The notes under the pieces are model-generated. The model saw only the letters and a list, made by a program, of their open reading frames with translations. It was not told where the DNA came from and ran no database searches. Source: Streptomyces sp. NBC_01723 (GTDB lineage Bacteria > Actinomycetota > Actinomycetes > Streptomycetales > Streptomycetaceae). Taken from it: DNA of 64,000 nt. Positions 49,061-63,972 of this stretch are shown piece by piece. Made by a program: the position numbers and the translations under genes. Where the stretch lies: the NCBI RefSeq assembly GCF_036246005.1, contig NZ_CP109171.1:4638001-4702000 (forward strand). Reading direction: 5' to 3'. Numbering within the stretch: position 1 is the first letter of the stretch; each line of letters opens with the position of its first letter.

Positions 49061-52000
49061 TCAACCCGGTACCACCACCGTGCGCAGCTCCCCGTCGCCG
49101 AGGTGCAGCATGCCCTTGCCCGGCGCCACCGGGCCGCCGACCATGGCGCGGGAGACACGCAGGCCGATGAGGTCGCCGCTGGAGGACTCCTGCGGGGAGA
49201 GCAGGATGCCGCGGCGGGCCTTCTTGGCGTCGACCTGCCAGCCGGAGAAGCCGCTGCACACGTCCTCCTCGTCACCGGCGATGACGAGGGCGAGGCCGCG
49301 TTCGGCGCCCCGGGAGACGATCTTCTTCATCTGGCTCTCGGCGTCGCAGTCCTCCAGGATCTCGCCGTCGTCGATCAGGACGGCGATCGGCTCCTCCAGG
49401 CTGGCCTGGTCGATCAGCTCCTCGAACTCGTCCTCGTCGATGTCGTCGCCGGTGAAGACCTTCAGTACGCCGTCCGCGCCGTCCAGTTGACGCATCGGCG
49501 ACTGGCGGGGCGCGGCGACGACCAGGCGGGTGCCCTGGGCGAGGAGCGACTGGGCGACGTTCATCAGGACGGTGGAGCGGCCGGACTTGGCGGGTCCCGC
49601 GATGACGAACGACGGTACGCCGTCGGCGAGATCGGGGCCGAAGCCGACGATCTCGTCGCCGCCGATGCCGATCAGCGCCCACAGCTTGGAGCGGGACGCC
49701 TCCGGGTCGCGCAGCTCCCAGGCCTCGGGGAAGGTGATCCGGCTGGGCAGGCTGTCGACGCGGAACGGGCGGCGGGCGCGCGGCACTTCGGCGTCGCGCG
49801 CCGCCGCGGCCTCGCCGATCGCGGTGATCGCCGCCGCCTGGCCCTGACCGGTGGTGTCCTCGGAGAGCAGCGCGAACTGCGTCTCCGTACCCGCCTCGTT
49901 GCGGAACGCGCGGCCCGGCGGGATCTCCTCGGGGACCTTGCGGGCCGGGATGCCGAGCGAGGCGAAGTCGCTGCGGTCGGCGAGGCGCAGACCGTACTTG
50001 TCCTCGGTGAGGGTCGCGATGCGGCCCACGAGGAGGGTGCGGTCACCGGTCAGGACCAGGTGGATGCCGATGCTCGCGCCCTCGCGCATCATCGTCTGCA
50101 ACTCGTCGGTCAGCGCCCCGTGGTCCACCTCGCCGAGGGTCGGCACCCAGCCCTCCCAGCGGTCGAGGAGCACGACGATGTGCGGCAGCCGCTCGTCCTC
50201 GGTCACCGCGGCCCGCTGCTCGCCGATGTCGGCGAAGCCCTTGTCGGCCAGCAGGTTCTGGCGGCGGTCCATCTCCCCCTTGAGCCGGTTGACGAGCCGG
50301 ACCACCCGCTCGGTCTGGTTGCGGCTGACGACCGCGCCGCAGTGCGGCAGCCGGGTCAGCGCGTTGAGGGCGCCGTTGCCGCAGTCGATGCCGTAGAGGT
50401 GGACGTCGGCGGTGGAGTGGGTGCGGGCCAGCGAGCCCGCGATGGTCCGCAGCACCTGGGAGCGGCCGCTGCGCGGGGCGCCGCCGATCATCAGGTGCCC
50501 GAAGGTCGCGAAGTCGACGACGACCGGGCGGCGGGCCTGGTCGGAGGGCAGGTCCTCGATGCCGTACGGGGCCGGTGGCAGCTTGCCCGGGGCGGCGCCG
50601 GCGAGGACCGGGACCTCGATGGCGTCCAGCAGCAGCATCTCGTCCAGCGCCGGCAGCCAGGGGCTGTGCTGGGCGGGGATGCCCATCGACCGGTTCGCGT
50701 CGCGTACCGCGTCCACGAGCACCTTGAGGTCGGTGATCTCGTCGTCCTCGCGCGACTCGGCCTTCGGCTTGGTCAGCGCGGCCCGGCCCAGGTCCTCCCA
50801 GCCCAGCGCGCCGACCCAGGGGGCGAGCGCGGCCGGGTCCGCGGCGCCGGGCCGACGGCCACCCACGCGGCCCGACTGGAAGGGGACCAGGGAGGAGTGA
50901 CCGAGGCGCACGTAGGCGCGGCCCGGGGTGTTCTTGGAGATGTGCCCCGCCTCCGGCGAGTCGATGACGTCGCTCGACTCGCCGCCGTCGGTCACGCGCA
51001 GCGCGATGCGGAGGTTGGTGTTGGCGCGGATCTCGGGGGAGACGACACCGCTGGGCCGCTGGGTGGCGAGCAGCAGGTGGATGCCGAGGGAACGCCCTCG
51101 CTGGGCGATGTTCACGAGACCGGTGACGAAGTCGGGCAGGTCCCGCACCATGGACGCGAACTCGTCGATGACGATGAGCAGCCGCGGCACCGGAGCGTGC
51201 GAGGGATCTCTCCTGACCAGATCCTGGTAGTCCTCGATGTCCTTGGCGTCGGCGGCGGCGAGGATGTGCTCCCGCCGCTTCAGCTCGGCGCCCAGCGACT
51301 CCAGGGCCCGCTCCACGAGGTGGGCGTCGAGGTCGGTGACCATGCCGACGGTGTGCGGCAGCTTCACGCAGTCCTTGAACGCGGACCCGCCCTTGTAGTC
51401 GACGAGGACGAAGGTCATGTTCTCGGGCGTGTTCGCGACGGCCAGCGCGGCCACGATCGTCTGCAGCAGCTCGGACTTACCGGAACCGGTCGTACCGGCG
51501 ATCAGGCCGTGCGGTCCGTCCTTGCGCATGTCGATGCCGAAGGGACCGTCGTACGACTCACCGATGACGGCCATCGTCGACTGCCCGCCCATCCGCCACC
51601 GCGCGCTGATCGCGTCGGATGTCGGCGGCTCCAGCTGGAGCACGTCGAGCAGCCGGCTGGCGCCGGGCAGCGCGGAGTCCTCGGTCTCGCCGCTGATGTC
51701 GCGCAGCGCGGACAGCGAGCGCGTCAGCCGCAGACACCACGCGGGCGTGACGAAGTCGGGCCGCACGTCCGTGATCCGCTCGACCCCGGCCTCCTCGACC
51801 CGCAGCCGCAACTTCTCTGTGCGGGCCCGCTGTTCGGGCTCGGCGGCCGCGTTGCCGTGCCAGGCCTGGAACGACGGGAACCCACCGGGCGTCTGCTGGG
51901 CGGCGGCCTGCGGTCCGCTCTCCTGCCGCTCCGGGTCCTCCGCCTTGGGCTCGGCGACGACGAACGCCTGGCACTCGCCCGGCAGGAACCGCTCCTCGGA

Positions 52001-53635
52001 GTCGAGGCACACGGCGAACATCGACACCGCCGGCCCCTCACGCAGCAGCCGCACGACACCCGGCAGGGACCGCAGCCGACGCGACCCGTCCCAGACGACG
52101 ACGATGTCCGGGTCGCTGAAGCTCGTCCCCGGCCCGCCGCCGCCCTTCTGCTCGGCGGCCTTCTTGCGGGCGTCGAGGATCTGCGTCAGCTCGCCGATGC
52201 GGGCGCCGACGGTCTCGGCGTCGGTCCCGATGAGGACGTTGACGTCCTGACCGCCGGAGGGCCGGGAGTGCGGCAGCCAGCGCACCCAGTCCCACCCGGG
52301 CTGCGCCGAGTTCTCACTCAGCACGTAGAACTGCACGTCCATGGGGCTGTGCAGCGCGGCCGTCTGCGCGACCGCCCAGCGTCCGAGCGACCGGGCGGAG
52401 TCCCCGGGGCCCGCGACGCCGATGACGCCGAGGGAACGCAGGGAGAGCGCGACGGGCGCGTCCTCGATCTTCCAGGTGACCTGGCGGCGGTGGTCGTCCT
52501 GCTCGGGGTCGTCGAGGACGACCTCGGAGGGCAGTTGCCCGGTGCCGAAGCGCAGCAGGAGATGGTCACGGTCGGTCCGCCGCCGCTCCCACAACCGCGT
52601 CCGCGGCCCCGTCCCGACGGACAGCACGACCGCCGGATCGGGAATGGCGTGCCGCCGGTCGGTCCGCTCGGTGACGAGCGCGTCCTGCGCGTCCTTCTCG
52701 ATCCGGGCCTTCTGCTCCTCGTACTCCTTGACCTGCTTGGCGTGGGACTTGCGCCCGTGCTTCTTGTCGTTGAAGTAGTTGGCGAAGAGCAGGATGGGGC
52801 TGAGACCCGCCATGATCAGGTAGTACCAGCGCCCGAAGACCGCCACGGCCACCACCGCACCCACCAGCGGGGTCAGCGCCATCAGCCAGGGCAGCGGCCG
52901 TGCCTCGTACTCGCGGGGCGGCGAGGGCAGCCGGAAGTTCGTCTGCCGCTCCGGCGGACGCAGCCGCGGCGGCCGGTTGTAGTCCAGCCCCACCCCGTCC
53001 TCGGACCACTTCAGAGCGGCGTTGGGAGGCGAGTACCGGGCCAGTTCGACGAGCGAGTTGCCGACGGCTATCTGCGCGCCGAGCGGCCACTCGTCACCGT
53101 CCCGGTCCTTCATGGACTCGCCGTCGAGGGTGACCTCTTCCTTCTCGGCGTGCACGGCGACCTTGCAGGTGCCGTCGGTGGACACGGAGAGGGTGAGGGC
53201 GCGCGAGTCGACCTCGGGATCGTCGATCCGGACGTACGACGCCGCTCCGCTGCCGATGTCGTACTTCCCGACGCCGAGCCGGTGCACGAACCCGGCCCCC
53301 GGCCCGCCGACGATCCGCAACTCCACCAGCCCGGTGGGCTCTCCGGGCAGACACCCGGACGGATCCTGGAGGGAGACGACGGCGCCCTCGCGCAGCGGCG
53401 AGCCGACCACGGTGGCGGATGGATCGACGGCGTACCCGTCGACGTAGACGAGCGGCGCGCCGCTCGCCGGCGCCTGACGCTGCTGCCCGATGGGGATGAC
53501 CTGCGCTCCCGCGACGCCGACCTGCTTGGCCAGCTCCTCGGCGATGTCCCCCACGGTGGACTCTGGATCGGCGTCGAGCACGACGTCGGCGGTGCCACCG
53601 CCGAACGGGTCGACGACGGTCAGGGTCAGTCGCAC
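49061..53635 (-). CDS. eccC: Type VII secretion FtsK/SpoIIIE ATPase (EssC/EccC-like) with FHA-like N-terminus
   Basis: 1,524 residues from GTG 53635 (GGGGAGGA ribosome site). Residues 1-200 hold a ubiquitin/FHA-like pair ('LTLTVVDPFGGGTADVVLD', 'YDIGSGAASYVRIDDPEVDSRALTLS'). Two membrane helices lie near residues 265-305 (LPWLMALTPLVGAVVAVAVF, 'YLIMAGLSPILLFANYF'). The first ATPase domain has Walker A GTTGSGKS (Lys720) and Walker B 'LLIVIDEF'. The second (GGAPRSGRS, near residue 1055) and third (AGPAKSGRS, near residue 1350) have Arg in place of the P-loop Lys, as is common in this family. The N-terminal layout is more like Firmicutes EssC than mycobacterial EccC. It should power export of WXG100-type substrates. 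Confidence 0.95.
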   Translation of the reverse strand: MRLTLTVVDPFGGGTADVVLDADPESTVGDIAEELAKQVGVAGAQVIPIGQQRQAPASGAPLVYVDGYAVDPSATVVGSPLREGAVVSLQDPSGCLPGEPTGLVELRIVGGPGAGFVHRLGVGKYDIGSGAASYVRIDDPEVDSRALTLSVSTDGTCKVAVHAEKEEVTLDGESMKDRDGDEWPLGAQIAVGNSLVELARYSPPNAALKWSEDGVGLDYNRPPRLRPPERQTNFRLPSPPREYEARPLPWLMALTPLVGAVVAVAVFGRWYYLIMAGLSPILLFANYFNDKKHGRKSHAKQVKEYEEQKARIEKDAQDALVTERTDRRHAIPDPAVVLSVGTGPRTRLWERRRTDRDHLLLRFGTGQLPSEVVLDDPEQDDHRRQVTWKIEDAPVALSLRSLGVIGVAGPGDSARSLGRWAVAQTAALHSPMDVQFYVLSENSAQPGWDWVRWLPHSRPSGGQDVNVLIGTDAETVGARIGELTQILDARKKAAEQKGGGGPGTSFSDPDIVVVWDGSRRLRSLPGVVRLLREGPAVSMFAVCLDSEERFLPGECQAFVVAEPKAEDPERQESGPQAAAQQTPGGFPSFQAWHGNAAAEPEQRARTEKLRLRVEEAGVERITDVRPDFVTPAWCLRLTRSLSALRDISGETEDSALPGASRLLDVLQLEPPTSDAISARWRMGGQSTMAVIGESYDGPFGIDMRKDGPHGLIAGTTGSGKSELLQTIVAALAVANTPENMTFVLVDYKGGSAFKDCVKLPHTVGMVTDLDAHLVERALESLGAELKRREHILAAADAKDIEDYQDLVRRDPSHAPVPRLLIVIDEFASMVRDLPDFVTGLVNIAQRGRSLGIHLLLATQRPSGVVSPEIRANTNLRIALRVTDGGESSDVIDSPEAGHISKNTPGRAYVRLGHSSLVPFQSGRVGGRRPGAADPAALAPWVGALGWEDLGRAALTKPKAESREDDEITDLKVLVDAVRDANRSMGIPAQHSPWLPALDEMLLLDAIEVPVLAGAAPGKLPPAPYGIEDLPSDQARRPVVVDFATFGHLMIGGAPRSGRSQVLRTIAGSLARTHSTADVHLYGIDCGNGALNALTRLPHCGAVVSRNQTERVVRLVNRLKGEMDRRQNLLADKGFADIGEQRAAVTEDERLPHIVVLLDRWEGWVPTLGEVDHGALTDELQTMMREGASIGIHLVLTGDRTLLVGRIATLTEDKYGLRLADRSDFASLGIPARKVPEEIPPGRAFRNEAGTETQFALLSEDTTGQGQAAAITAIGEAAAARDAEVPRARRPFRVDSLPSRITFPEAWELRDPEASRSKLWALIGIGGDEIVGFGPDLADGVPSFVIAGPAKSGRSTVLMNVAQSLLAQGTRLVVAAPRQSPMRQLDGADGVLKVFTGDDIDEDEFEELIDQASLEEPIAVLIDDGEILEDCDAESQMKKIVSRGAERGLALVIAGDEEDVCSGFSGWQVDAKKARRGILLSPQESSSGDLIGLRVSRAMVGGPVAPGKGMLHLGDGELRTVVVPG

Positions 53636-53820
53636 GCTTGTCCTCCCCAGGCGAGCCCCTGGAGCCGCTTCCACACCACGGCTCACAGTCCAGGCGACGA
53701 TATCCGCTGGGTGTCGCGGTCCGGCAACAGGGAGGTGACCGGACGTTCCCGAAGGCAACGCAGGGATGTGACACCAACGGCCTCACCCGTAAGCTGCTGC
53801 CTCAAGAGCGGACGATCACA

Positions 53821-53921: not shown

Positions 53922-54224
53922 ATGGCCAAAGACCTTGACATCACATACCAGGACATGCGGGATGCGGCCAAGCATGTCGTGAAGGAGAAGGAAAAGCTCC
54001 AGGAGAAGCTCGACGGCCTCCGCAAGTACATCGCGAACCTGGTCGAGTCGGGCTATGTCACGAAGTCCTCCTCGAAGGCCTTCGACGACAACTTCGACGA
54101 GTTCACCAAGGGCGCGAAGGACACGCTCGACGGCCTCGACGGCATGGGCGACTACCTGACCACGGCCGCGGACAAGTTCGAGCAGATCGACGAGGAACTG
54201 GCGAAGCAGGCGCGGAGCAAGTAG
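53922..54224 (+). CDS. WXG100/ESAT-6-like secreted protein
   Basis: 100 residues from ATG 53922 (GAGGAAG ribosome site). Two long helices joined by a turn: 'MRDAAKHVVKEKEKLQEKLDGLRKYIANLV' then ESGYVTKSSSKAFDDNF, then a second helix to the end ('YLTTAADKFEQIDEELAK'). Size, charge and helix-turn-helix layout match WXG100 proteins. The turn, however, has S-G-Y instead of W-x-G, and the C-terminal part lacks the strict YxxxD/E signal. It diverges from eccC, which fits a substrate of that ATPase. Confidence 0.85.
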   Translation: MAKDLDITYQDMRDAAKHVVKEKEKLQEKLDGLRKYIANLVESGYVTKSSSKAFDDNFDEFTKGAKDTLDGLDGMGDYLTTAADKFEQIDEELAKQARSK

Positions 54225-54236
54225 CCCCGACACGGC

Positions 54237-54262
54237 GACCCGCCCGGTACGCCGGGCGGGTC
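54237..54262. terminator. Bidirectional hairpin between WXG100 gene and the minus-strand cluster
   Basis: Perfect 11-bp stem GACCCGCCCGG/CCGGGCGGGTC with a 4-nt loop. It lies 12 bp after the WXG100 stop and touches the stop of the gene at 54261, so it can end both. Confidence 0.75.
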
Positions 54263-54941
54263 AGCTGTCGGCGAGGGGCTGGCGGAGAAGGTACCTGTGC
54301 AGCGCACTGCGCGGCTCGACCGTCCCCAGGCGCAGCCAGGAGCGGTCCCGGAAGCGGATCAGGACGATTCGGGTGTCGAACTCACCGTTGAACGGGTCGA
54401 CGAGGACGGCCTCGGAGGCGGAGAGGCGGGCGACGACCCGCATGTGCTTCTCCTTCCCGACGGAGACGCGTCGCGGCGGAGCCGCCAGAACGATCCCGTC
54501 GTCCACCGCGAGGACGAGCCGCTCAGGGTGAGGGGACCGGCCGTACCAGCCCAGCAGGAACCGGCCTGCGTCGCCGTCCCAGTTCCCGTCGAAGACCCCG
54601 TCCAGCCCGCGCTCGGCGACGAGGGCGTCCCGGCGCTTGTCGTCGGCGTCCTTGGCCCGCAGCCGCTCCTTCTCGGCCTTCGTGGCGAGGGCCCGCTTCA
54701 GCGCTTCCTCCGCATCGGACAGAAGGGACAACAGCATGACGAGCGGCGCGAACAGCACGGCGAGCGCCGCACCGACCATGCCCAGGGGCCGCAGTCTTCC
54801 CGGCCGGAGCGGGGGATTTCCAGCGGCCTGGAGTACGTCCGCGGGAGGCTGGGGGATCTTGTCGATCGTGCACCACTCACTCGCCTCGGCGTGCACTCCG
54901 AGACGCTCCGCTGCCGCGCGCTGGTCGCTCCTGGACGCCAC
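54261..54941 (-). CDS. Single-pass membrane protein with PH-like C-terminal part (T7SS locus)
   Basis: 226 residues from GTG 54941 (AGGAG 5 nt upstream); GTG 54956 is possible. One membrane helix near residues 53-76 ('LGMVGAALAVLFAPLVMLLSLL') followed by a charged coiled segment. The C-terminal 110 residues are beta-rich: 'LVLAVDDGIVLAAPPRR…RIVLIRFRDRSWLRLGTVEPRSALHRYLL'. This ending (…F.DxSWxRLGxVxRxxLxRYL) matches the protein at 56230, so both seem to carry the same domain. Last gene of the minus-strand run. Function unknown. Confidence 0.75.
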   Translation of the reverse strand: MASRSDQRAAAERLGVHAEASEWCTIDKIPQPPADVLQAAGNPPLRPGRLRPLGMVGAALAVLFAPLVMLLSLLSDAEEALKRALATKAEKERLRAKDADDKRRDALVAERGLDGVFDGNWDGDAGRFLLGWYGRSPHPERLVLAVDDGIVLAAPPRRVSVGKEKHMRVVARLSASEAVLVDPFNGEFDTRIVLIRFRDRSWLRLGTVEPRSALHRYLLRQPLADS

Positions 54942-54956
54942 GTCGGCTCCTCTCAC

Positions 54957-55409
54957 CTAAGACTCAAGTACGTGCACACCGGCACGGCCGAACGCGTCCA
55001 TGATGGCTACCGCTTCTGGAGACCGACACTCGATCCCTGCCCCGGAGTTGAGCAGCACGTCCACCGTGTTGGCCACCCACGCCACACCGCTGGGCACGAG
55101 CGCCACGCCCGCGACGTCGTCGAGCGGTAGATCGAGGGCTGCTCCGTCCGCACCCCGCAACCGCAGCGTTTCCCGCCCGACCGCCAGAGCACCCGCGCGC
55201 GACGGCCCGGCGTCCCAACCCCTGGGGCCCGCCTCGCCCGCCCCCGCGGTGTCCGCCTCGGCCAGCCCGTAGCGCACGGGAAGCGGCACAGCCCCGGCGC
55301 TGAAGGCCGAGGCCAGACCGTCGGCGGCGGCACGCGGTTCGGCGCGCTCCCGGCGGCGCATAAGGAGGGCCCTGGGCAGGCCCAGCACCAGAACCGCCAG
55401 CGCGAGCAC
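54957..55409 (-). CDS. Small membrane protein of the T7SS locus; start codon unclear
   Basis: 150 residues if GTG 55409 is used (MLALAVLVLGLPRALLMRR…). The reading frame stays coding-like above that point for another 24 codons (…LLVTLVFVVVRPEEALGLTV…), back to the stop of the upstream gene at 55482. These codons add a second hydrophobic helix but contain no ATG, GTG or TTG. Either a rare start such as CTG is used or the sequence has a small error. The outer or C-terminal part is beta-rich ('LRLRGADGAALDLPLDDVAGVALVPSG'), again PH-like. Unknown function; it lies 15 bp from the next gene. Confidence 0.65.
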   Translation of the reverse strand: MLALAVLVLGLPRALLMRRRERAEPRAAADGLASAFSAGAVPLPVRYGLAEADTAGAGEAGPRGWDAGPSRAGALAVGRETLRLRGADGAALDLPLDDVAGVALVPSGVAWVANTVDVLLNSGAGIECRSPEAVAIMDAFGRAGVHVLES

Positions 55410-55481
55410 CGCCGCGACGGTGAGCCCGAGGGCCTCCTCGGGGCGTACGACGACGAATACCAGCGTGACGAGCAGCTCGCC

Positions 55482-56189
55482 TCAGCCGTGGTCGTCGGCC
55501 GGATCATGAAAAGAGAGCGTTTGGAGAACGGCTGACATCAGGCGGTAGATCTCCGTCCAGTGGTCCATGGAGGCCGTGTAGAGGGTGAACACCGCGGTGT
55601 ACGGTCCGGTCGGGAACGGGACGTGCACCTGGATCTGGCCGGTGAGCAGCTTTGTTTCCTCCGGGTTCGCTGCCATCTCCGGGCTGAGTGTGTATTCGCG
55701 CAGTGTGATGGATGAGACGGCGGGACCGCAGGGGAGATCGACCCAGATGGCGTTGTTGTACGGGTCACCGGTGAGGACCGCGAGTATGCCTTGGGCCACG
55801 ACATCGGTGTCGGCGCCGGCTTGGTCCGTGGGGATGATCCCCACGGTGAAAGCGCACTGCGCGACACCGTCGGCAGGTTCGTACCGCTGCACCTCGCCAT
55901 GCGACGTGCCGTCTTCCTCAGCGGTGGAGAACAATCCCATGGCGGCGTAGGAGAGACCGGAGGCTCCCATCATCTCCGCGATCCCCGCGTAGTACGGGGC
56001 GGCAGGGCCCCAAGTCTCCTCGTCGCCGCGTGAGTACAGCTCGCGCACGAATGCCGAGGCGCCCTCCAAACGCTCCTCGGGGGTGGCGGCGATGGGGAGG
56101 GCGAAGAACCCCTCCGGAGCGATGAACCAGAGGGGTGGAAGGCCCGCTGTTGCGGGGATGGCGTGCGGAGGGGGCGTTGCGGAGCTCAT
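55482..56189 (-). CDS. Unknown protein, MOG1/PsbP-like in look (T7SS locus)
   Basis: 235 residues from ATG 56189. No signal peptide or membrane helix. It opens 'LPPLWFIAPEGFFALPIAATPEERLEGASAF' and ends 'VPFPTGPYTAVFTLYTASMDHWTEIYRLMSAVLQTLSFHD'. The second phrase (VPxP…F…W…FD/M…T..F) recurs in the protein at 59543, so the two are paralogues in the two cassettes. The pattern recalls MOG1/PsbP/DcrB-fold proteins, some of which are lipid- or secretion-related; that link is inference. Confidence 0.78.
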   Translation of the reverse strand: MSSATPPPHAIPATAGLPPLWFIAPEGFFALPIAATPEERLEGASAFVRELYSRGDEETWGPAAPYYAGIAEMMGASGLSYAAMGLFSTAEEDGTSHGEVQRYEPADGVAQCAFTVGIIPTDQAGADTDVVAQGILAVLTGDPYNNAIWVDLPCGPAVSSITLREYTLSPEMAANPEETKLLTGQIQVHVPFPTGPYTAVFTLYTASMDHWTEIYRLMSAVLQTLSFHDPADDHG

Positions 56190-56229
56190 AAGGCGTTGTC
56201 GGCCGTTCTCATCCAGGGCGCGGCGGGCG

Positions 56230-57153
56230 TCAGGTCAGGAAGTCGTCCGGGTGGTACTCGGTCAGCTTGAGTTCGACACCGGCCGAATTCATCACCGTGT
56301 GCCGACCGGGGTGCCCAAAGAAGGGGTCGACCGTGCTGGGAGCCAGCACTTCGACCCGAAAGCAACCGCAGGGGTTCTGCTTGACGAGGGGCGGCTGGGC
56401 ATCCGGTGCTTGCGCGGAGGCGAATCGCTCCGCGGTCTCCCGCTGAGCTGATGCGAGTGAGTCCAACGGGATGAAATCAAGCGGTTCGACAAGGTACCGA
56501 GTCAGCCTCTCCCTTTTCACGCTGCCGAGCCGGGTCCAGGAACCGTCCGTAAACACGATCTTGACGTCGTGGTCGGTCTTGAAGTCACGCAACTCGACGC
56601 TCGCGATGGTGGACCGAGAGGTGTCCCACAGGAATTCGTCGTTGATGAGGGAGTCATTCCCCTTCACGTACGGAAAGCCCACGATCACCAGTCGGAGGTC
56701 GGTGATCACCGCGTGGGTGCGGTAGTGCGCCGGAGGAGACCGGTCCGGATCCAGCCGCCAGGGCAGGGTGCGAGCAGTCGTGTCCGGGGCGGCCCAGATG
56801 ACGGGGAAGTCCTCGACCTCGTCCGAGTGATCGTGAGACTTATCAGCACCGGTACGGCCTGCCGGACCACCGACGCCACCTCCCTGCGAGGAGAGCGCGC
56901 CCCACACCAGGGTTCCCGCGGCGATCGCCGTGCCCTTGAGGGCGTTCAGCCCGCTCGCCCCCGGCGCCGACCGGGCCGTGTAGGTCGGCCCCTCAGGCCA
57001 GCCTGCCAACTGGCCCTGAATATCCCTGCGTTCTGTGTCGCGGAACCAGCGCATTCCTTTGACGCGCATGGCCGCACCGGAGGCGAACGTAACCGGAGCG
57101 CGAGCGAGGAGAGTCTCACCGGCTGGGGGGAGCCAGAGGTTCATGGGCGTCAT
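56230..57153 (-). CDS. Unknown protein with PH/GRAM-like domain (T7SS locus)
   Basis: 307 residues from ATG 57153 (GGAGGAGGA just upstream; a second ATG three codons on is possible). It has a short glycine-rich, weakly hydrophobic stretch ('LKGTAIAAGTLVWGALSSQGGG'). A beta-rich domain follows (residues 145-235; 'HAVITDLRLVIVGFPYV…IVFTDGSWTRLGSVKRERLTRYLVEPL'). Two cysteines (PCGC) lie near residue 265. The domain is shared with the protein at 54261 and fits the GRAM/PH-like class that binds membranes. It follows the putative effector gene at 57199 and may be its partner or immunity protein. Confidence 0.75.
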   Translation of the reverse strand: MTPMNLWLPPAGETLLARAPVTFASGAAMRVKGMRWFRDTERRDIQGQLAGWPEGPTYTARSAPGASGLNALKGTAIAAGTLVWGALSSQGGGVGGPAGRTGADKSHDHSDEVEDFPVIWAAPDTTARTLPWRLDPDRSPPAHYRTHAVITDLRLVIVGFPYVKGNDSLINDEFLWDTSRSTIASVELRDFKTDHDVKIVFTDGSWTRLGSVKRERLTRYLVEPLDFIPLDSLASAQRETAERFASAQAPDAQPPLVKQNPCGCFRVEVLAPSTVDPFFGHPGRHTVMNSAGVELKLTEYHPDDFLT

Positions 57154-57198
57154 TCCTCCTCCGCGGCGAACGTGAGAATGGTGTTCTCCTACAGCGAG

Positions 57199-58419
57199 TC
57201 AGTCGGCGGTCACATGTCCATAGATCTTCGGCGCGACCTTGAGCCCGGCGTCCAAAGCCATTCCCGCCGCACTGAACGGTTCGAGGTTCACTCCTGGGAT
57301 GAAGTTCGCGCCCTTGGTCCCGATCAATTGTCCCTGGTGGTATCCGGCGACGGAGAGACCGCCCATCCGCGACATGAGGCCGCTCGTCGAGTGCGCCACC
57401 TCGTACACCTCGTCGGAGAAGCCACCGATCTTCACCAGGCCCGCCTTGCCCAGCCCGCCCTGCAAGTGGGTGGACTCCCCGCCGAAGGACAGCAAGACGC
57501 GCGCTCTTCCCACACTGGTGGCCTCGAAGCCCTTGCCCAGCTTGCTCGCGGTGGCGGCCGCCTTGCCCGCTCCCACCACCTTGACCCCCTTGCCGAACAT
57601 GCCGATGCCCGGCAGCAGGCCCACGGCGTCGAGGCCGAGTTGTGCCCAGCTGACGTCGGCACCTGCCGCCTTCGCCACGCCGTGCGTTGCCAGGGACAGC
57701 CCGGCGCCGATCAGCGCGGCCGTGCCGAAGATCGCCGATAGGGGCGGGAACGGAAGGGTCACGATGGCCAGCATGCCCAGGACCGCCGTGATGTCGCTGA
57801 GCACGTCGCCGATCGCCTTGATCAGATCCGCGTGCTCCTTCAGCCAGTCGCCGGTGGCATCCCAGGCGTCGGCTATGCCCTTGCCGAGCTTGTCCCAGAA
57901 GCCGGGCTCGTTGGGGGCGATGTCACCGGCCTTGTCCAGCTCCTTGCCGATACGGCGAGCGGCCTCCTTGAAGCGCTCCTCGAGGTCGTGGACCTTCTGG
58001 ATGACGCCGTCGACGGCGCTGGACGCCTCGCCGAGTTCCTTACTTCCCTTGCCGTCGGCCTTCGCCTCGGCGTCGGCCTTCTCGTCGAGTTTGGTCCCGG
58101 CGGACTTCTCGAGCCGGTTGGCCTCGTCCTGGAAGTCCTTCAGCTCGTTGGACCAGCGATGCAGCGCACGGGAGGCCTTGTCGAAGGACTCGAAGCTCTT
58201 GCGGATGAGCGGGGTGACGTCTTCGCCGATGTACTCGGTGAAGGCGATAGCGGTCTTGCCCTTCCAGGCGCCGCACTCGATGCGTTCGAGTTCCTTCACC
58301 GCCGTGCCCAGGTCACTGGCGAGACTGCCGAGCTTCTTGGCGAGCTCGCGAGTGTCCTCGACGTCTCCGGGAGTCGGGTCCCAGCCTATGTTCGGGAACG
58401 CGGGACGCGTGCCGGCCAC
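57199..58419 (-). CDS. Putative T7SS substrate: helical WXG-type N-terminus with hydrophobic centre
   Basis: 406 residues from GTG 58419, which starts 3 bp after the upstream stop. Residues 1-180 are helical, with a W-K-G turn ('ECGAWKGKTAIAFTEYIGEDV') and the phrase 'LHRWSNELKDFQDEANRLEKSA'. A hydrophobic centre follows (about 225-300: 'ITAVLGMLAIVTLPFPPLSAIFGTAALIGAGLSLATHG'). The C-terminal 110 residues (…GGESTHLQGGLGKAGLVKIGGFSDEVYEVAHS…YGHVTAD) match no toxin domain I know. It is related to the protein at 60585 in the same layout. By analogy with LXG/WXG-fused proteins it may be an exported effector, but no activity can be read from the sequence. Confidence 0.78.
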   Translation of the reverse strand: MAGTRPAFPNIGWDPTPGDVEDTRELAKKLGSLASDLGTAVKELERIECGAWKGKTAIAFTEYIGEDVTPLIRKSFESFDKASRALHRWSNELKDFQDEANRLEKSAGTKLDEKADAEAKADGKGSKELGEASSAVDGVIQKVHDLEERFKEAARRIGKELDKAGDIAPNEPGFWDKLGKGIADAWDATGDWLKEHADLIKAIGDVLSDITAVLGMLAIVTLPFPPLSAIFGTAALIGAGLSLATHGVAKAAGADVSWAQLGLDAVGLLPGIGMFGKGVKVVGAGKAAATASKLGKGFEATSVGRARVLLSFGGESTHLQGGLGKAGLVKIGGFSDEVYEVAHSTSGLMSRMGGLSVAGYHQGQLIGTKGANFIPGVNLEPFSAAGMALDAGLKVAPKIYGHVTAD

Positions 58420-58421
58420 GT

Positions 58422-58727
58422 CTACTTGCCCTTCTTCGCCTTGGCGGCCTTGAGCGACTCGGCGAGGTCCAGGTCGAGCTTGCCGAAGGTGTCGCCGATG
58501 TGGTTGATCATCTTCACGGCGCCCTGCGTGTGCTTGCCGAGCTGCTTGATGCCGTAGCCCCACTCGTCGGCGAAGTCCTGCACGTCCTCGACGAGGCTCG
58601 CCTCTCCGACCGCTGATGCATCGGCGCCGCGCAGGGTACGGCGGGTGGCCTCCATGCGGTCGCTGATGGAGCCGAACGTCTCCTTCAGGTGCTGGAAGAT
58701 GGTGTCGTCGAGAGTCAGGTCACTCAT
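58422..58727 (-). CDS. WXG100-size helical partner protein (cassette B)
   Basis: 101 residues from ATG 58727 (GGAG 6 nt upstream). All helical, with 'SLVEDVQDFADEWGYGIKQLGKHTQGAVKMI' in the middle; Trp56 is in a W-G-Y-G setting. It ends in a lysine-rich tail. The phrase DFxDxW recurs in the protein at 61945. It lies directly before the long protein at 57199, the order seen for LXG/WXG substrates and their small chaperone-like partners. Confidence 0.82.
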   Translation of the reverse strand: MSDLTLDDTIFQHLKETFGSISDRMEATRRTLRGADASAVGEASLVEDVQDFADEWGYGIKQLGKHTQGAVKMINHIGDTFGKLDLDLAESLKAAKAKKGK

Positions 58728-58861
58728 ACGGCACTCCGGTCCCTGTGGGCGTTGGGGGCAAGCTCACTGACCGTATCGATCACGGGGCCGGTTCCGCCAC
58801 TGGGTACGAGCTGGGCGGCGATTCGCCGCGGGAGGCCGAAGGGCGTATCCATCGGGGCCGG

Positions 58862-59503
58862 TCAATGAGCCGCCCCGGGAAGCCGCAGCGTTCGCGCGAA
58901 GTCGTCCAGGGGTTCCATGGCCGCGGCGATCACTTCCGGATCGTCGTGGTGCCCGCGGAGTACGACGTCGGGGAGGCCGGGCGGGGTGTGCCAGTGGTAC
59001 GTGACGGCGGTCATCATGAGGGTGCTGTCCGCGGGGTAGGAGCGGGTGACCCGGACCCCGTCCGCGCCCAGGTACGGAGAGGCGAACGGAATGCTGCCGG
59101 TTCGCTGCTGCCACTCAGGGATCTCCGGGTGCGGCACCGTGAACGCGGTGGCTCCCTCGCAGGAGGCCGGGTCAGGGGACTCGCAGTGGAGGCGGGTGGC
59201 GTGCATCACCAGTGGCATGTAGGTCAGCGGAACGGGATGGTAGATGAACGCCTCTTCGGCCTGAAGCTTGTCCCGGAGCGTGACGATCAACTGCTCGTAG
59301 AAGCTCTTGTGGAAGCGGCGTAGTTTGCGGGTGAGTTCGATGTCGTGGATGGCGGCCAGGCCGGTCAGGTGCAGGTCCAGCCATTCCTTGAAATTTTTCT
59401 TGTCGATCTGGAGGTGAAAATAGCCCCAGAGGTCGGGGTTGGCATCCGTGTCGATGTGGAGCGGGGCGCCGAGATCGCTGCTCCACAGGGTGCCTTCGGA
59501 CAT
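58862..59503 (-). CDS. Unknown soluble protein (T7SS locus)
   Basis: 213 residues from ATG 59503. No signal peptide or helix. Central helical segment 'FHKSFYEQLIVTLRDKLQAEEAFIYHPVPLTYMPLVMHATRLHC', then a beta-rich end ('YHWHTPPGLPDVVLRGHHDD'). Two cysteines. It lies between the two cassettes, after the MOG1/PsbP-like gene at 59543. No family recognised. Confidence 0.75.
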   Translation of the reverse strand: MSEGTLWSSDLGAPLHIDTDANPDLWGYFHLQIDKKNFKEWLDLHLTGLAAIHDIELTRKLRRFHKSFYEQLIVTLRDKLQAEEAFIYHPVPLTYMPLVMHATRLHCESPDPASCEGATAFTVPHPEIPEWQQRTGSIPFASPYLGADGVRVTRSYPADSTLMMTAVTYHWHTPPGLPDVVLRGHHDDPEVIAAAMEPLDDFARTLRLPGAAH

Positions 59504-59542
59504 GACTGCTCTCTTTCTTCGGGGGCGCGACAGAGAGGGCCT

Positions 59543-60175
59543 TCAGGCGTAGCTCCAGCGGAAGGTGCCCATCACGGCATCGAACAATTCCACGAGGGTG
59601 TCATAGAAGGCGAGATCCGAGCCGGGCGCGATCAGGGCGCTGAAGGAGAAGGCGAGGTACTGATCGAGGGCGCTGTCCGGGACCGGAACGAAGTACTCGA
59701 CCTGGCGGTGAGCGACATCGACGCCCTTGGCCGGGTCGGCGGGTACATCTCGCTCCGAGCGCAGGGCCGCGGTGTCGTCGAGCGTCCGCGTCTCGGCACC
59801 CGGAGTCACGGAGGCGAGCGCGGCCAGGACCGCTTCCGGGCCGCTGTCGGGCCTGATGCGCGGAATCTCGATCGGCTCGGAGGCCACGATCGAAACGGGC
59901 AATGCGACGCCATGAACGCGTTCGGTGGGGAGGTAGAGGGTCATTCCCCCCTTGGCCCTGGCCCGGCGGACGACCTTCTTCATCTCCTGGGTGAGCTTCA
60001 GCCGTGCCTTCGGAATGTCGTCCTTGGGGAAGCCCACGGGCAGTTGTGCGACGGCCTTGCGGACGATGTGGTCCATCGCTTCCTTGGTGCCCGTGTGCAG
60101 CGGAATCACGTCCCAGCCGGGGGGCGGCACCAGGTTGAAACCGTTCGGGGGCCGGCGGTGCTCAGCGGTGGTCAT
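59543..60175 (-). CDS. MOG1/PsbP-like paralogue (T7SS locus)
   Basis: 210 residues from ATG 60175; its first 14 bp overlap the end of the membrane-protein gene. Opens 'GFNLVPPPGWDVIPLHTGTKEAMDHIVRKA' and ends 'VEYFVPVPDSALDQYLAFSFSALIAPGSDLAFYDTLVELFDAVMGTFRWSYA'. The 'W…P' opening and the 'VPxP…F…FDxxxxTxxW' close are those of MOG1/PsbP-fold proteins. The protein at 55482 has the same arrangement, so each cassette carries one. Function unknown. Confidence 0.78.
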   Translation of the reverse strand: MTTAEHRRPPNGFNLVPPPGWDVIPLHTGTKEAMDHIVRKAVAQLPVGFPKDDIPKARLKLTQEMKKVVRRARAKGGMTLYLPTERVHGVALPVSIVASEPIEIPRIRPDSGPEAVLAALASVTPGAETRTLDDTAALRSERDVPADPAKGVDVAHRQVEYFVPVPDSALDQYLAFSFSALIAPGSDLAFYDTLVELFDAVMGTFRWSYA

Positions 60176-60575
60176 TGCGCCCCCGTGTCACTTCCACGGC
60201 ATAGGTAACGCCTACGAAAAGCGCCCACGCCGGGGCGGCGATCATGCCCGGCCAGAAACCGAAGAAGAGCGAGGGCAGGAAGAAGCCGCCGCCCATGGCG
60301 AGGTCCCGGGTGAGGTAGGGCGGACGGCTCGCGTGACGGGGGTACTTCGCGAAGACCCAGACGTAGTGCAGGAGGCAGCCGATGATTCCGGCCTCATAAA
60401 CGTAGAGCACGCCATTCATCATTGACTTCGGCACCAGGATCATAATCCCCAACACCGGGAGGAATAGTGGCATTCCGATGATCAGCGTCAGCCGGAGCCG
60501 ACGGTTGGGGCCGGTACCGAGCCCGGTGCGGGCGGCTTCGGCCTCGGTAATGCGTTGCGCCGAGTTCAGGTCCAT
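60162..60575 (-). CDS. Three- to four-helix membrane protein (T7SS locus)
   Basis: 137 residues from ATG 60575; this ATG has GAGGA 7 nt upstream, better than the ATG at 60581. Helices near residues 30-50 (LTLIIGMPLFLPVLGIMILV), 55-75 (MNGVLYVYEAGIIGCLLHYVW) and 95-130. It starts 9 bp after the stop of the long protein at 60585, a usual place for a membrane immunity protein, but this is inference. Confidence 0.78.
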   Translation of the reverse strand: MDLNSAQRITEAEAARTGLGTGPNRRLRLTLIIGMPLFLPVLGIMILVPKSMMNGVLYVYEAGIIGCLLHYVWVFAKYPRHASRPPYLTRDLAMGGGFFLPSLFFGFWPGMIAAPAWALFVGVTYAVEVTRGRNDHR

Positions 60576-60584
60576 GGTCATTCC

Positions 60585-61940
60585 TCACCAGTGGGTGTCG
60601 GCGGCGGGCTTCAGGGTGTTGTCCTTCCAGTCTGAGTACGCCGCGTTGTACGGCTTCTCGCCGGTTCCGAACTCCTCCTTGGTCCAGCTTGTCAGGTCGC
60701 TCTTGCCCAGCGTCTTGTCCACGACGTCCATCCCCATGCCGGTCCAGGCGACGCCGAGGCCTGCCTGATAGGACTTGTACGCCTTATCCGCCGCAGCCCC
60801 CGCGGCCGCCGGGAAGGCAGCCTTGTTCGCCTGCAGCATTTTCGCCATGCCGGCCATCTCCTTGTCGCCGAGGTGCACCAGCGTCGACAACGGGCTGACC
60901 CTCAGGGGCCCCTTGGCGACCAGTCCGACGTTCTGAGAGATGGACTTACGCATCGCGTTACGGGCCGCTCCGAGGGCCTGCCGCCCCGGCCCTTCCGGCA
61001 ATTTGGTCATCAACCGTCCGGTGTCGTCCAGGGTGCTCTTGACGCCCCTGAGCCCTTGCCGCAGGCCGGCGGTCCGGGCGCCCTGAGCAGCGCCCACGGT
61101 GGCCTTGGCGCCGCTGGCGAGCTTCGCGGCCGCCCCGAGGCCGCCCACGACGAGGAGCCCACCCACGACGTCGAAGATGACATCTGTCCAGGTGGCGTCG
61201 CCTGATGCCACCAGCAGGAGTCTGAGCCCGATCGTCAGCGCCGCGATGCCGAGGACAAGCAAGTTCAAGCCGGGAATGGCGAGCGCCAGGAAGCCTGCCG
61301 CTGTCGCGACCCAGCCGAGAACATCGATGAAGGCCTTGATTCCGTCCGCGTGATCGTGGACCCAGCCCTTGACGTCGTCCCACCACGAGTCCTCGATCAC
61401 GTCGTCGATCTCGTCGCGGATCTTCCCGGCGTAGTGGTTGGCGCGAGTGGTCCGGTTGCCGGTGAGGGAGTCCAGGGTCCTTCGGTACGGCTGAAGGGGG
61501 TCGTCGAAGGGACTGGCGCCGCTGGGGGACCCCTGCGAGACGTCCTTGTCCTCCGGGGCGTCCTTCTTGGCCTTGTCGGCCTCGACCTCAGCCTGCTTCT
61601 CCTTGGCTTGGCGCAGGAGCTTGTCGGCGTCGCTCTGGAAGTCCTCCAGTTCGTTCGACCACTTGGTCAGGTGGCCGTGCACCCGCTCGTACCGTCCGGC
61701 CACCTCCCGCATGTGCTTCTCCAGCGTGGATGACTCGTCGCGCAAGGTCTTTACGTACTTGCCCTTGAGGGTCTCGTCGTCGCTGATCGCCTTGAGGTTC
61801 TTGGCCTGGTCCCGGAGCTTCTTGGCCACCGAGACCATGTGCTTGACCTCGGAACGGATCTCCTCCGGATCGCCGGGAACGGGATCGGATGCGCACAGCG
61901 GCTGCCAGTCCACCGGACGGCGCTTGGATGTCGGTGTCAC
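60585..61940 (-). CDS. Putative T7SS substrate: helical N-terminus, hydrophobic centre (cassette A)
   Basis: 451 residues from GTG 61940, 4 bp after the upstream stop. Residues 1-140 are coiled helix, with 'LKGKYVKTLRDESSTLEKH' and 'HLTKWSNELEDFQSDADKLLRQA', the latter equal in form to 'WSNELKDFQDEANRL' in the protein at 57199. The hydrophobic centre is at 215-275 ('AFIDVLGWVATAAGFLALAIPGLNLLVLGIAALTIGLRLLL'). The C-terminal 170 residues end '…YSDWKDNTLKPAADTHW' and match no known toxin. The WXG of a classical domain is replaced by LKGK. Clearly a paralogue of 57199 with a different C-terminus, as expected of polymorphic effectors. Confidence 0.78.
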   Translation of the reverse strand: MTPTSKRRPVDWQPLCASDPVPGDPEEIRSEVKHMVSVAKKLRDQAKNLKAISDDETLKGKYVKTLRDESSTLEKHMREVAGRYERVHGHLTKWSNELEDFQSDADKLLRQAKEKQAEVEADKAKKDAPEDKDVSQGSPSGASPFDDPLQPYRRTLDSLTGNRTTRANHYAGKIRDEIDDVIEDSWWDDVKGWVHDHADGIKAFIDVLGWVATAAGFLALAIPGLNLLVLGIAALTIGLRLLLVASGDATWTDVIFDVVGGLLVVGGLGAAAKLASGAKATVGAAQGARTAGLRQGLRGVKSTLDDTGRLMTKLPEGPGRQALGAARNAMRKSISQNVGLVAKGPLRVSPLSTLVHLGDKEMAGMAKMLQANKAAFPAAAGAAADKAYKSYQAGLGVAWTGMGMDVVDKTLGKSDLTSWTKEEFGTGEKPYNAAYSDWKDNTLKPAADTHW

Positions 61941-61944
61941 GGCG

Positions 61945-62244
61945 TCACTTCTTCTGCTTCTTCTTGTTGGCCTCGGCCAGCTGCTTGTCGAGGTCCTCGA
62001 AGGCCTTCTTGCTGCCGGCCACGAGCTTGCCGACCGATTCGATGGACTCGATGAGCCTGGTGCGGTAGTCGTCCCAGTTGTCGACGAAGTCCTCCATGGC
62101 CCCGGCGATGAGACCGGAGCCCCAGTGCTCCTTCATGTCGTCGCGGCGGTTCTCGATGTCCTCGAACGTCTTCTTGAGCTGGCCGAGCTTGCGCTCACAG
62201 TCCGCGAGGAAGTCGTAGTCGACCGTCAGATCCGGGTCGCCCAC
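61945..62244 (-). CDS. WXG100-size helical partner protein (cassette A)
   Basis: 99 residues from GTG 62244 (GGAAGG 6 nt upstream). All helical: 'DYDFLADCERKLGQLKKTFEDIENRRDDMKEHWGSG' then 'AMEDFVDNWDDYRTRLIESIES'. Trp41 is in a W-G-S-G turn, and the tail is Lys-rich. It is the counterpart of the protein at 58422 and stands just before the long protein at 60585. Confidence 0.82.
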   Translation of the reverse strand: MGDPDLTVDYDFLADCERKLGQLKKTFEDIENRRDDMKEHWGSGLIAGAMEDFVDNWDDYRTRLIESIESVGKLVAGSKKAFEDLDKQLAEANKKKQKK

Positions 62245-62284
62245 AGTGGCCCTTCCCCTCGCATGCGCTCTCGCTGTTCTGCTT

Positions 62285-63328
62285 TCAACGGTTGACCGCC
62301 TGGATCTCCTGTACGACGACCTCCTGGCCGTTCCCGAACGTCCCGTCGGGCAGATCGCCGCCCGCTCCTCCCGAGCCCGTCCAGGCGACCTCCCACGTGA
62401 CCGTCGCCTGGAGGTCGAACGAGCCGTCTCCGGAGCTGCGGAGGTACTTGATGCCGCAGGGCGGGGTCCGGTCGGCCTTGCCCTTCGTGTAGGGCTCGCC
62501 GATCGAACCGTCGTCGTTGATCGCGCACTCTCCTGAGGCGGGGTAGGTCTCGGCGTCCGGCGTGCCCGGCTCCAGCTTGAGGGAGACCGGGGTGGCGGTG
62601 GTGGTCGCCTGGATGTTCACGCCGCCCACGTCGAGCGACGCGGTGACGGACACCTCGTCGAACTTGGCCCGGTCGAGCCAGGCCCACGTCGGCAGGTTGA
62701 CCTTCGTCGTGCCTCCCGGGGCGAGGGTGACCGCGGTGTCGGGGACCTTGATCCTGGCGTAGGCGAGCTGGGCGAGGATCTCCGGGGTCACGGCGTTCTC
62801 GACCTCGGGGGCTTCCCCGTTCTCGACCCAGAACGTCTCGGTGTCGCAGGCGAAGGCGGCCGGGTCACCCGCTTCGGCGCGGTCGTCGTCGCGGACCGAG
62901 TCCCACCAGATCCCCTTGCCGGCTTCCTCCTTGTTGAAGTCCTTGTAGGGCTCCCCGTTGATGTAGTGGTCCTGGGAGAGCCGATAGGCCTCGCCCACTC
63001 CACTCGCGTGGGGTATGTCCCAGCGTTCGCGGAACTCGTCGGCGAACTCGTCCGGAGTCCACTTCGGCTCGTACCAGCAGGCCGGTGGGCTCCAGTCCTC
63101 GGCGGGGGTGAATCCCCCCGAGCCCTCCTTGCCGCCCCCTCCGGTCGAACCGGTGAAGACGATCCGTGACTCGAGAGTCCGACCCTTGTCCTTGTCGTTG
63201 GTGCCCTCGACGTCGAACTGGGAGCCGCCGGGGTCCTTGCCGACCGCGGTGCCGGCCGTGGCGAGCACGCACGTGGCGGCCAGCACCCCCGTCGCCGTCA
63301 CGAGCCGGGCCTTTCTCACTGCACGCAT
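62285..63328 (-). CDS. Secreted protein of unknown function (T7SS locus)
   Basis: 347 residues from ATG 63328, overlapping the upstream gene by 13 bp. Sec signal peptide (MRAVRKARLVTATGVLAATC… ending ATAGTAVG). The mature part has four cysteines that could form two disulfides ('PPACWYEP', 'AFACDTE', 'GECAIN', 'PPCGIKY') and a long beta-rich region with repeated Thr/Val strands. No lipobox. Proteins of this kind lead some actinobacterial secretion clusters, but no family is recognised. Confidence 0.8.
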   Translation of the reverse strand: MRAVRKARLVTATGVLAATCVLATAGTAVGKDPGGSQFDVEGTNDKDKGRTLESRIVFTGSTGGGGKEGSGGFTPAEDWSPPACWYEPKWTPDEFADEFRERWDIPHASGVGEAYRLSQDHYINGEPYKDFNKEEAGKGIWWDSVRDDDRAEAGDPAAFACDTETFWVENGEAPEVENAVTPEILAQLAYARIKVPDTAVTLAPGGTTKVNLPTWAWLDRAKFDEVSVTASLDVGGVNIQATTTATPVSLKLEPGTPDAETYPASGECAINDDGSIGEPYTKGKADRTPPCGIKYLRSSGDGSFDLQATVTWEVAWTGSGGAGGDLPDGTFGNGQEVVVQEIQAVNR

Positions 63329-63972
63329 GTCTCGCTCCCCCGTACAGAAGTGCCGTCCGTCGTACGCCAGACGCCCTGGTCGTTCTTCTCCAGCCGGGTG
63401 TTGTACAGCACGTAGGAATCGCTCGTGGCCGGAGACTTGTCGACCTTTCCGGTCTTTCGCTCCTTGTTGTAGGCCTTCGTCTCGTCGGCGCAGAACGAGA
63501 CGCCCGCGGACTTCGCGTCGAAGAGTTCAACCTTGGGATCGAAGTACCGGGTGGTGCCGGTGTACGTGATTCCGGCGTCCAGCCACTTCTGCACCCACTT
63601 CACGGACGTGGTCAGCGCCTTGCCCTCGTAGTAGAAGGTCAGACCCGCCGTGTCCGTCCTGCCCTGCACGATGGCGTCGTTCATCGCCGTCTGCGCCCGT
63701 GCCGCGTCGGCGAGGACGGCGTCCTTGGTCGCGTCGCCCGTCTCCCACTTCTCGAAGACGTCCTTGACGTCCTTCGGCAGCGTGACGTCCGGGCGGTCGG
63801 CGGAGTCCGACGCGGCGGCGCTCGGCGCCGTGGCCGACGGTGAGCCCCCGGTGTCCGCTCCCGCGATCTTGTCACTGTCGTCGGCCTTGTCGTCCCCGCC
63901 GCCGCAGGCCGTCAGAAGCAGCGCTGCCGTTGCAGCGAGCGCGGTGGCAACGGGCAAAGAACGGCGCTTCAC
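63316..63972 (-). CDS. Lipoprotein (T7SS locus)
   Basis: 218 residues from GTG 63972 (GGAG 8 nt upstream). Lipobox LLTAC with Cys23, then an acidic Ser/Ala linker to residue 60. The folded part (residues 65-218) has a helical start ('KDVFEKWETGDATKDAVLADAARAQTAMNDAIVQG') and a beta end ('YYEGKALTTSVKWVQKWLDAGITYTGTTRYF'). It ends with two cysteines. First gene of the minus-strand run; its promoter should lie at or beyond the window edge. Confidence 0.85.
   Translation of the reverse strand: MKRRSLPVATALAATAALLLTACGGGDDKADDSDKIAGADTGGSPSATAPSAAASDSADRPDVTLPKDVKDVFEKWETGDATKDAVLADAARAQTAMNDAIVQGRTDTAGLTFYYEGKALTTSVKWVQKWLDAGITYTGTTRYFDPKVELFDAKSAGVSFCADETKAYNKERKTGKVDKSPATSDSYVLYNTRLEKNDQGVWRTTDGTSVRGSETCVQ

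Follow-up and report, generated by a model that had tools for sequence, protein, structure and literature searches.

The window analysed here, a 64,000-nucleotide stretch of the 8.85-Mb genome of Streptomyces sp. NBC_01723 (C1:4638001-4702000), carries on its minus strand two paralogous gene cassettes, A and B, which adjoin the gene for an EssC/EccC-like ATPase that is 94% identical to the EssC of S. coelicoflavus. These cassettes belong to a unit that recurs in Streptomyces and consists of a small WXG100-like partner, a long protein, usually a variable gene and a Mog1/PsbP-like protein, and the variable gene co-diverges with the C-terminus of the long protein, as immunity genes do. We consider it probable that the long proteins are polymorphic effectors, that an Eag-like chaperone serves each of them, and that they leave the cell through a reduced type VII secretion system (T7SS) of the EssC-WXG100 kind with exchangeable cassettes. 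That a real, recurrent type VII effector unit should have a Mog1/PsbP partner was unexpected. The genes concerned are given below and are referred to by their first coordinate.

49061..53758, minus strand: EssC/EccC-like FtsK-type ATPase (eccC), with an FHA-like domain, a membrane segment and FtsK modules
53922..54224, plus strand: WXG100 protein, divergent from eccC and lying between eccC and the cassettes (Pfam WXG100, E 6.5e-18)
55482..56189, minus strand: Mog1/PsbP-like protein of cassette A, assigned through a profile link to the 59543 family
56230..57153, minus strand: candidate immunity protein of cassette A, the variable gene after the effector, which co-diverges with the effector C-terminus in related cassettes
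57199..58419, minus strand: putative effector of cassette A, 406 residues, with a T7SS_signal/WXG100-like helical domain, a hydrophobic hairpin and a variable C-terminus (Pfam T7SS_signal, E 8e-5, just under cut-off); paralogue of 60585
57685..57804, minus strand: hydrophobic hairpin of effector A, about residues 206-245 (hydropathy)
58422..58727, minus strand: small helical partner of cassette A, with a C-terminal FxxxD-type motif and a weak likeness to the small protein of cassette B
58862..59503, minus strand: final gene of cassette B, with a counterpart in another species, also in a B-type cassette (L054, 23% identity)
59543..60175, minus strand: predicted Mog1/PsbP-fold protein of cassette B (structure model), candidate effector chaperone
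60162..60581, minus strand: candidate immunity protein of cassette B, three hydrophobic segments, whose type follows the effector C-terminus
60585..61940, minus strand: putative effector of cassette B, 451 residues (the genome scan gave T7SS_signal above cut-off, at 28.4 bits; the protein scan gave nothing from Pfam at 1e-3)
61125..61331, minus strand: region of effector B with the hydrophobic hairpin, about residues 204-272 (hydropathy)
61945..62244, minus strand: small helical partner of cassette B, which matches Pfam WXG100 below cut-off (E 1e-3) and bears a C-terminal FxxxD-type motif

An earlier note, made from the sequence of the window, had described two parallel cassettes, and the minus-strand genes that it named were confirmed as open reading frames; for the long gene 57199, the GTG at 58419, which follows the small gene immediately, is the most probable start, in place of 58563. 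The note had also pointed to a WSNEL-x-DFQ motif shared by long proteins with different C-termini and a DFxDxW motif shared by the small ones. The first motif is present in both long proteins, which are 30% identical (E 7e-18) over their N-terminal two thirds and have C-termini that do not align; the small proteins do share the second and are weakly related (24%, E 2e-4). Its MOG1/PsbP-like assignment stood for 59543, the fold of which was modelled, and less firmly for 55482: pairwise BLASTP of the two gave no match (best E 2.4), and the link is a weak one, in which 55482 aligns with 185 columns of the 59543-family profile at E 4e-4 and a probability of only 34%, eight controls scoring E 0.046 or worse. 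The paralogy of the two cassettes held and their number did not, as two more, C (plus strand) and D (minus strand), lie past the window end at 4712.4-4716.7 kb and 4716.7-4719.6 kb of the genome; in cassette D the order is effector, 108-residue candidate immunity gene, Mog1-like gene and small partner. A genome scan found T7SS_signal at seven places at E 0.1 or better and a single WXG100 match above cut-off, in the gene adjoining eccC. Two further candidates for the Mog1-like family were set aside: 58862 gave no match in the profile test, and C_3594 was suggestive only (E 0.006, probability 6%).

The recurrence of the unit was followed in two sets of loci. The first comprised 61 stretches, namely the window end, L009, 20 EssC loci of a phylum sample and 39 chosen regions, and contained 65 long proteins; among the 62 that were uncut, a small partner lay within 1 kb upstream in 51, and a same-strand Mog1 gene no more than 3 kb away in 54, a figure inflated because the 39 regions were partly chosen for their Mog1 gene. 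The second comprised 80 named loci fetched by EssC similarity alone, with at least six contigs already in the first set. Gene counts were made on 70 of these, the 10 with less than 8 kb upstream being left out, and gave a divergent WXG100 gene in 63, a long gene in 67, a small gene in 67, a Mog1 gene in 68, and the small, long and Mog1 genes together in 66; this complete triad holds 88 of the 94 long proteins of the named loci. Relatives of individual genes were counted in 55 of the 80 loci, those that are full-length: the A-type next gene (that following the effector) was found in 21, the B-type in 12, relatives of 55482 in 26 and of 58862 in 15, and a relative of the WXG100 gene was present in all 55 while the cassette genes turn over.

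The earlier note had tied the cassettes to the ATPase, with wide occurrence apart from EccC/EssC as the observation that would speak to the contrary, and in Streptomyces such occurrence was not seen. Among 121 Streptomyces genomes searched, 50 contain EssC at a threshold of E 1e-150 and 40 contain Mog1 at a threshold of E 1e-8, with 38 in both groups, so that the ATPase is present in 38 of 40 Mog1-positive genomes versus 12 of 81 Mog1-negative ones. Mog1 was found in 29 of the 30 genomes with a close EssC orthologue (a group that includes the fragmented G294, added by hand) and in only nine of the 20 with divergent EssC alone. Shared ancestry inflates these counts, but the association extends beyond it, because each of eight divergent EssC genes (identity 51-59% in the part aligned) has a Mog1 gene no more than 5 kb away, and because genes for WXG100, small, long, Mog1 and EssC proteins stand in one 9-kb run on pTCL, a plasmid of Curtobacterium, which belongs to another order. 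This run encodes a WXG100 protein (41%), a small protein (E 5e-20), a hairpin-bearing long protein (E 2e-46), a 211-residue protein, a Mog1 protein (35%), a membrane protein and EssC (44.5%). pTCL was the only plasmid with a Mog1 match among 72,556 plasmid records, 32 of which had an EssC match. The membrane protein of the pTCL run (L252:8699-9631) is an extra one that lies directly before EssC and could be a missing machine part.

In the phylum sample of 246 genomes, EssC/EccC was matched at E 1e-50 in 45 and Mog1 in six, of which three, the Streptomyces that have a close EssC orthologue, gave strong matches, G189 a partial one (E 1.6e-13) and G128 and G080 weak ones; this Mog1 search misses members, the triads of G128 having been found by a larger profile only. 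A wider search with the Mog1 profile is uninformative on wider spread, as those of the best 120 of 307 matches that carry an organism name are all from Streptomyces.

The long proteins have the architecture expected of polymorphic toxins. By hydropathy, a hydrophobic hairpin is present in 107 of the 109 long proteins above 330 residues in the named loci, and a signal-like N-terminus in none of 112; in the first set the hairpin was found in 64 of 65, a count biased by the long-protein profile, which includes the hairpin. Elsewhere the effector N-terminus stands on RHS-repeat proteins (six of the seven large or D-type proteins scanned), and these Rhs relatives end in Endonuclea_NS_2 in L138 and in DUF3990 in L118. 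In L138 the WXG100, small, Mog1 and Rhs-nuclease genes lie in a row and adjoin a divergent EssC gene. For the effectors of cassettes A and B, neither Pfam, NCBIfam nor PADLOC matched a toxin domain, in agreement with the earlier note, toxin domains being found only in the Rhs relatives; low-scoring matches of the A and B effectors to coiled-coil, SMC and Rad50 models were set aside as composition effects. An AlphaFold2 model of effector B is all-helical and weak (pTM 0.43), and was not used for a fold search. Effector B is near-uniform, since 115 of the best 120 of its 202 relatives are alike over the aligned length (73-95%); a second C-terminal allele occurs in five listed relatives (P0236-P0240), which are 78-94% identical over the first 100 residues and 40-53% over the last 180.

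Pairwise comparison of 45 of the 65 cassettes (990 pairs) showed related N-termini in 898 pairs, related C-termini in 237 and related next genes in 92. In 88 of the 92 pairs with related next genes the C-termini were also related (permutation mean 22, maximum 40), and in 149 of the 237 pairs with related C-termini the next genes were unrelated. The next genes of the 45 cassettes form 14 clusters, and the C-terminal pieces still join 37 cassettes in one cluster, for which conservation of a stretch behind the hairpin is the probable reason. Within four types, defined by next-gene similarity, next-gene identity tracks the C-terminus with a partial r of 0.92 (81 pairs of 27 cassettes), a value reached by none of 2000 permutations; for the single types, the number of permutations out of 2000 that reached the observed value was three for A, 81 for B and 21 for C-like. 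There is also a natural chimera, L113:7985, whose N-terminus is 54-69% identical to B-type and 25-31% to A-type proteins, and whose last 150 residues are 37-66% identical to A-type and 23-28% to B-type proteins. The earlier note's suggestion of polymorphic effectors with partners and immunity is thus well supported: N-termini are conserved and C-termini variable (more weakly so for type B), the adjacent gene varies together with the C-terminus, and Rhs relatives exist.

The ATPase itself matches Pfam FtsK_SpoIIIE in two stretches (E 5e-64) and, below cut-off, the FHA-like PF16697 (E 3.5e-5), and its N-terminus appears ubiquitin-like by eye, with no family match. Among NCBIfam models, the Firmicutes EssC model TIGR03928 scored best, at 555 bits versus a cut-off of 778, followed by EccCa (422 bits, cut-off 509) and EccCb (324 bits, cut-off 347), both likewise below cut-off. 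The true start of the gene is probably near 53635 and not at 53758, because relatives begin there. The description of the ATPase as an orphan in the earlier note does not stand, as it had overlooked the WXG100 gene at 53922-54224; that gene is present, and the ATPase therefore has a substrate partner. A WXG100 protein encoded with an FtsK/EssC ATPase is the combination that marks a type VII system of any kind. The note had seen no EccB or EccD in the window, and neither was matched anywhere in the genome, in searches that gave matches in nine (EccB) and 10 (EccD) of 12 Streptomyces; a search for YukC/EssB matched none of eight Streptomyces, this genome included, and did match the B. subtilis control. 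Genome G161 (EssC 79%) is without EccB and EccD, and G182 is without EccB and has one weaker EccD match, while G356 (EssC 94%) has both. Judged by these searches for EccB, EccD and YukC, neither T7SSa nor T7SSb is complete in this genome.

Of the 105 distinct small proteins encoded in the named loci, 97 have a [FYW]xx-hydrophobic-[DE] motif near the C-terminus (shuffled mean 3.2), and so have 68 of 72 WXG100 relatives (shuffled mean 5.3). In the passages cited from PMC9600955, an FxxxD motif in Lap1 is required for export of an LXG effector and resembles the YxxxD/E export arm.

The structure model of 59543 has the Mog1/PsbP fold and matches LpqN (the best named match), PsbP and the Eag chaperones of the type VI secretion system (T6SS), the fold being the one seen in complexes of Eag with a transmembrane domain (TMD). 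The fold claim rests on the model, because the Mog1-family profile matched no PDB sequence at a threshold of E 0.05. Pfam gave no match at E 1 for 59543 or 55482, DUF1795/DcrB included, and one Mog1 relative (P0036) is labelled DUF1795 by UniRef. Only two of 123 Mog1 proteins have a hydrophobic N-terminus by hydropathy, and we count this lack of a signal peptide in favour of a chaperone. In the phylum sample, 10 of 13 proteins found with the Pfam T7SS_signal model that have a strong hairpin have a Mog1 neighbour, versus one of 13 without (Fisher 0.001). The single exception has a weak hairpin, and among the three proteins that have a hairpin but no Mog1 neighbour is one confirmed as an Rhs protein (L149). 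This comparison used 26 of 28 rows, two being second pieces of the same proteins; rows from the same genome are not independent, the hydropathy cut-off of 1.9 was set by hand post hoc, and some of these genomes had also gone into the Mog1 profile.

Of the two roles considered for the Mog1 protein, chaperone and immunity protein, we place the chaperone role ahead, with some reserve. Several observations weigh against the reading that we favour. Outside Streptomyces most EssC loci are without a Mog1 gene, L065 being one exception; the T6SS immunity proteins TplEi and Tsi3 share the Mog1/PsbP fold; and, with types centred, Mog1 identity tracks both the C-terminus (0.85) and the N-terminus (0.60) of the effector, the N-terminal link being absent in types A and B, and the values without a possibly mispaired Mog1 (c55, L143) and the chimera being 0.31 for the N-terminus and 0.78 for the C-terminus. 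A first partial-correlation test, in which Mog1 had tracked the N-terminus and not the C-terminus, failed once types were centred, and was dropped as an argument for a chaperone. The shared fold and the C-terminal tracking both suit Mog1/PsbP proteins that form a second immunity layer against the same effectors, as do the nine cassettes in which the next gene is the Mog1 gene itself and the chimera L113:7985, whose Mog1 protein is 45-55% identical to A-type, like its hairpin and C-terminus, while its N-terminus is B-type. We nevertheless regard such a second layer as unlikely: the chimera fits hairpin binding as well; Mog1 goes with the hairpin, is found beside Rhs effectors too and almost never has a hydrophobic N-terminus; and among 40 cassettes the Mog1 proteins, which were preselected by profile, give BLASTP matches in 211 of the 622 pairs in which neither C-termini nor next genes are related, whereas the next genes match in only four of 626 pairs with unrelated C-termini.

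It is improbable that the cassettes are Streptomyces developmental or cell-envelope genes whose products are exported by the system and are non-toxic. The full-length likeness of effector B in 115 of 120 listed relatives and the apparent Tad/Flp pilus cluster that the locus adjoins would agree with this, but the ATPase is patchily present (50 of 121 Streptomyces at E 1e-150 or better), cassette types exchange at the same site, the C-terminus and next gene evolve fastest and do so jointly, and Rhs-nuclease relatives exist. Export of the effectors by another route, the EssC neighbourhood being inherited synteny, would be in keeping with data that come mostly from one genus and with the 43 of 128 Mog1 places where the contig has no EssC gene or the nearest is more than 50 kb away; given that the EssC association recurs with divergent EssC lineages and on the Curtobacterium plasmid, and that WXG100, the T7SS_signal domain and the FxxxD motif are type VII features, we find it very improbable.

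Under the chaperone reading, we infer export by this EssC, toxicity, immunity and hairpin binding, combined as follows. The EssC-like ATPase and its WXG100 partner would be the constant core. The small WXG100-like partner may pack on the helical N-terminus of the effector and present its FxxxD export arm to EssC, the effector itself being built of this helical export domain, the hydrophobic hairpin and a variable, putatively toxic C-terminus; a cognate immunity protein would be encoded directly after the effector in most cassettes. The cytosolic Mog1/PsbP-fold protein would keep the hairpin soluble up to its export, in the manner of the Eag chaperones of type VI effectors, and the exported hairpin might then insert in the membrane of a neighbour and aid the entry or action of the C-terminus. 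More generally, and tentatively, as a proposition for which we see a little short of an even chance, Eag-like Mog1/PsbP chaperones in some Actinobacteria, one per effector, may bring membrane-hairpin toxins to an EssC-WXG100 machine able to work without EccB, EccD and YukC. If so, one chaperone fold would have been recruited in two unrelated secretion systems to keep the membrane helices of toxins soluble before export. We know of no answer to the question of how, in type VII systems, an effector with membrane helices stays soluble until it is exported; if the hairpins have their chaperones in the Mog1/PsbP proteins, the Eag principle holds for T7SS as well as for T6SS, and these genes would be a genetic marker for such effectors in Actinobacteria. 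The system, which here seemingly runs without EccB, EccD and YukC, could also serve to probe the minimal type VII machine.

Two other genes lie between the WXG100 gene and cassette A:

54261..54956, minus strand: protein with one hydrophobic segment, possibly an orphan immunity paralogue (C-terminus 48% identical to 56230 over 40 residues); relatives in 15 of the 55 loci
54957..55409, minus strand: small protein with an N-terminal hydrophobic segment, no Pfam match, in one of the 55 loci

A Ser/Thr kinase gene adjoining eccC (47253-49016) has a relative in 48 of 55 eccC loci. The 1575-codon open frame at 49103-53830 (plus strand), antisense to the whole of eccC, was read as a high-GC artefact. 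A gene pair for a lipoprotein and a secreted protein at 62285-63972 occurs again at L009:10028-11748 (secreted proteins 47% identical, E 2e-78), flanking the cassette and pilus region on both sides; relatives of the pair are found near eccC in 39 and 35 of the 55 loci. Between cassettes B and C lies a Tad/Flp pilus cluster, recognised by eye (L007:7616-11363; genome C1:4708616-4712363). A second FHA-bearing FtsK/EssC-like protein, in a frame of about 1475 residues (L008:8292-12536; genome C1:3084291-3088535), is encoded next to two protein kinase, release-factor-like and ftsE/ftsX-like genes (by eye), with no cassette seen beside it. The EssC locus L065:1975-6577, in a genome outside the class of the window, encodes two T7SS_signal-like proteins and a pair of small ones that carry an LPDGW motif; the Mog1 profile matches one of them (E 8e-10).

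In the literature, the cited passages of PMC3482391 tie PsbP/MOG1 to T6SS operons as a possible adaptor and name the FtsK ATPase and PH-like EsaC for T7SS toxin neighbourhoods, and those of PMC12419801 call PsbP/MOG1 diagnostic of T6SS. DUF1795 appears as a T6SS adaptor/chaperone or general toxin adaptor, with no link to type VII in the passages cited (PMC11796102, PMC11925235, PMC6560169). For Streptomyces, T7SS-linked alarmone synthetases with putative immunity genes are described in the part of PMC12691689 cited here. Within the open-access literature, searched with limited terms only, we found no report of a Mog1/PsbP or Eag-like chaperone in type VII secretion.

Mycobacterial LpqN/MTC28 shares the Mog1/PsbP fold. 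LpqN is an exported protein, and MTC28 is exported according to the title of its entry, whereas 121 of the 123 proteins here are without a hydrophobic N-terminus. With T7SSa (ESX) the system has in common a WXG100 substrate and an FtsK-type ATPase with several ATPase modules, but EccB and EccD were not found in this genome. The T7SSb LXG effectors of Firmicutes, with their targeting factors Lap1 and Lap2, are alike in having a helical N-terminal export domain, a variable C-terminal toxin (a putative one here), a small WXG100-like partner with FxxxD and an EssC-like ATPase; they differ in that the effectors here match T7SS_signal and not Pfam LXG, that YukC/EssB was not found in this genome, and that most cassettes here have a Mog1/PsbP protein, unmentioned for the Lap proteins in the passages cited (PMC9600955). 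From the Eag (DUF1795) chaperones of T6SS Rhs/PAAR effectors, which stabilise N-terminal effector TMDs according to the cited part of PMC12881460, the present proteins differ in having no Pfam DUF1795/DcrB match, in their linkage to EssC and WXG100 genes in Actinobacteria, and in that the effector bears a type VII export domain and TMD binding is predicted only. They nevertheless resemble them in the Mog1/PsbP fold modelled for 59543, in being without a signal peptide, and in being encoded beside effectors with a hydrophobic hairpin by hydropathy, Rhs proteins included.

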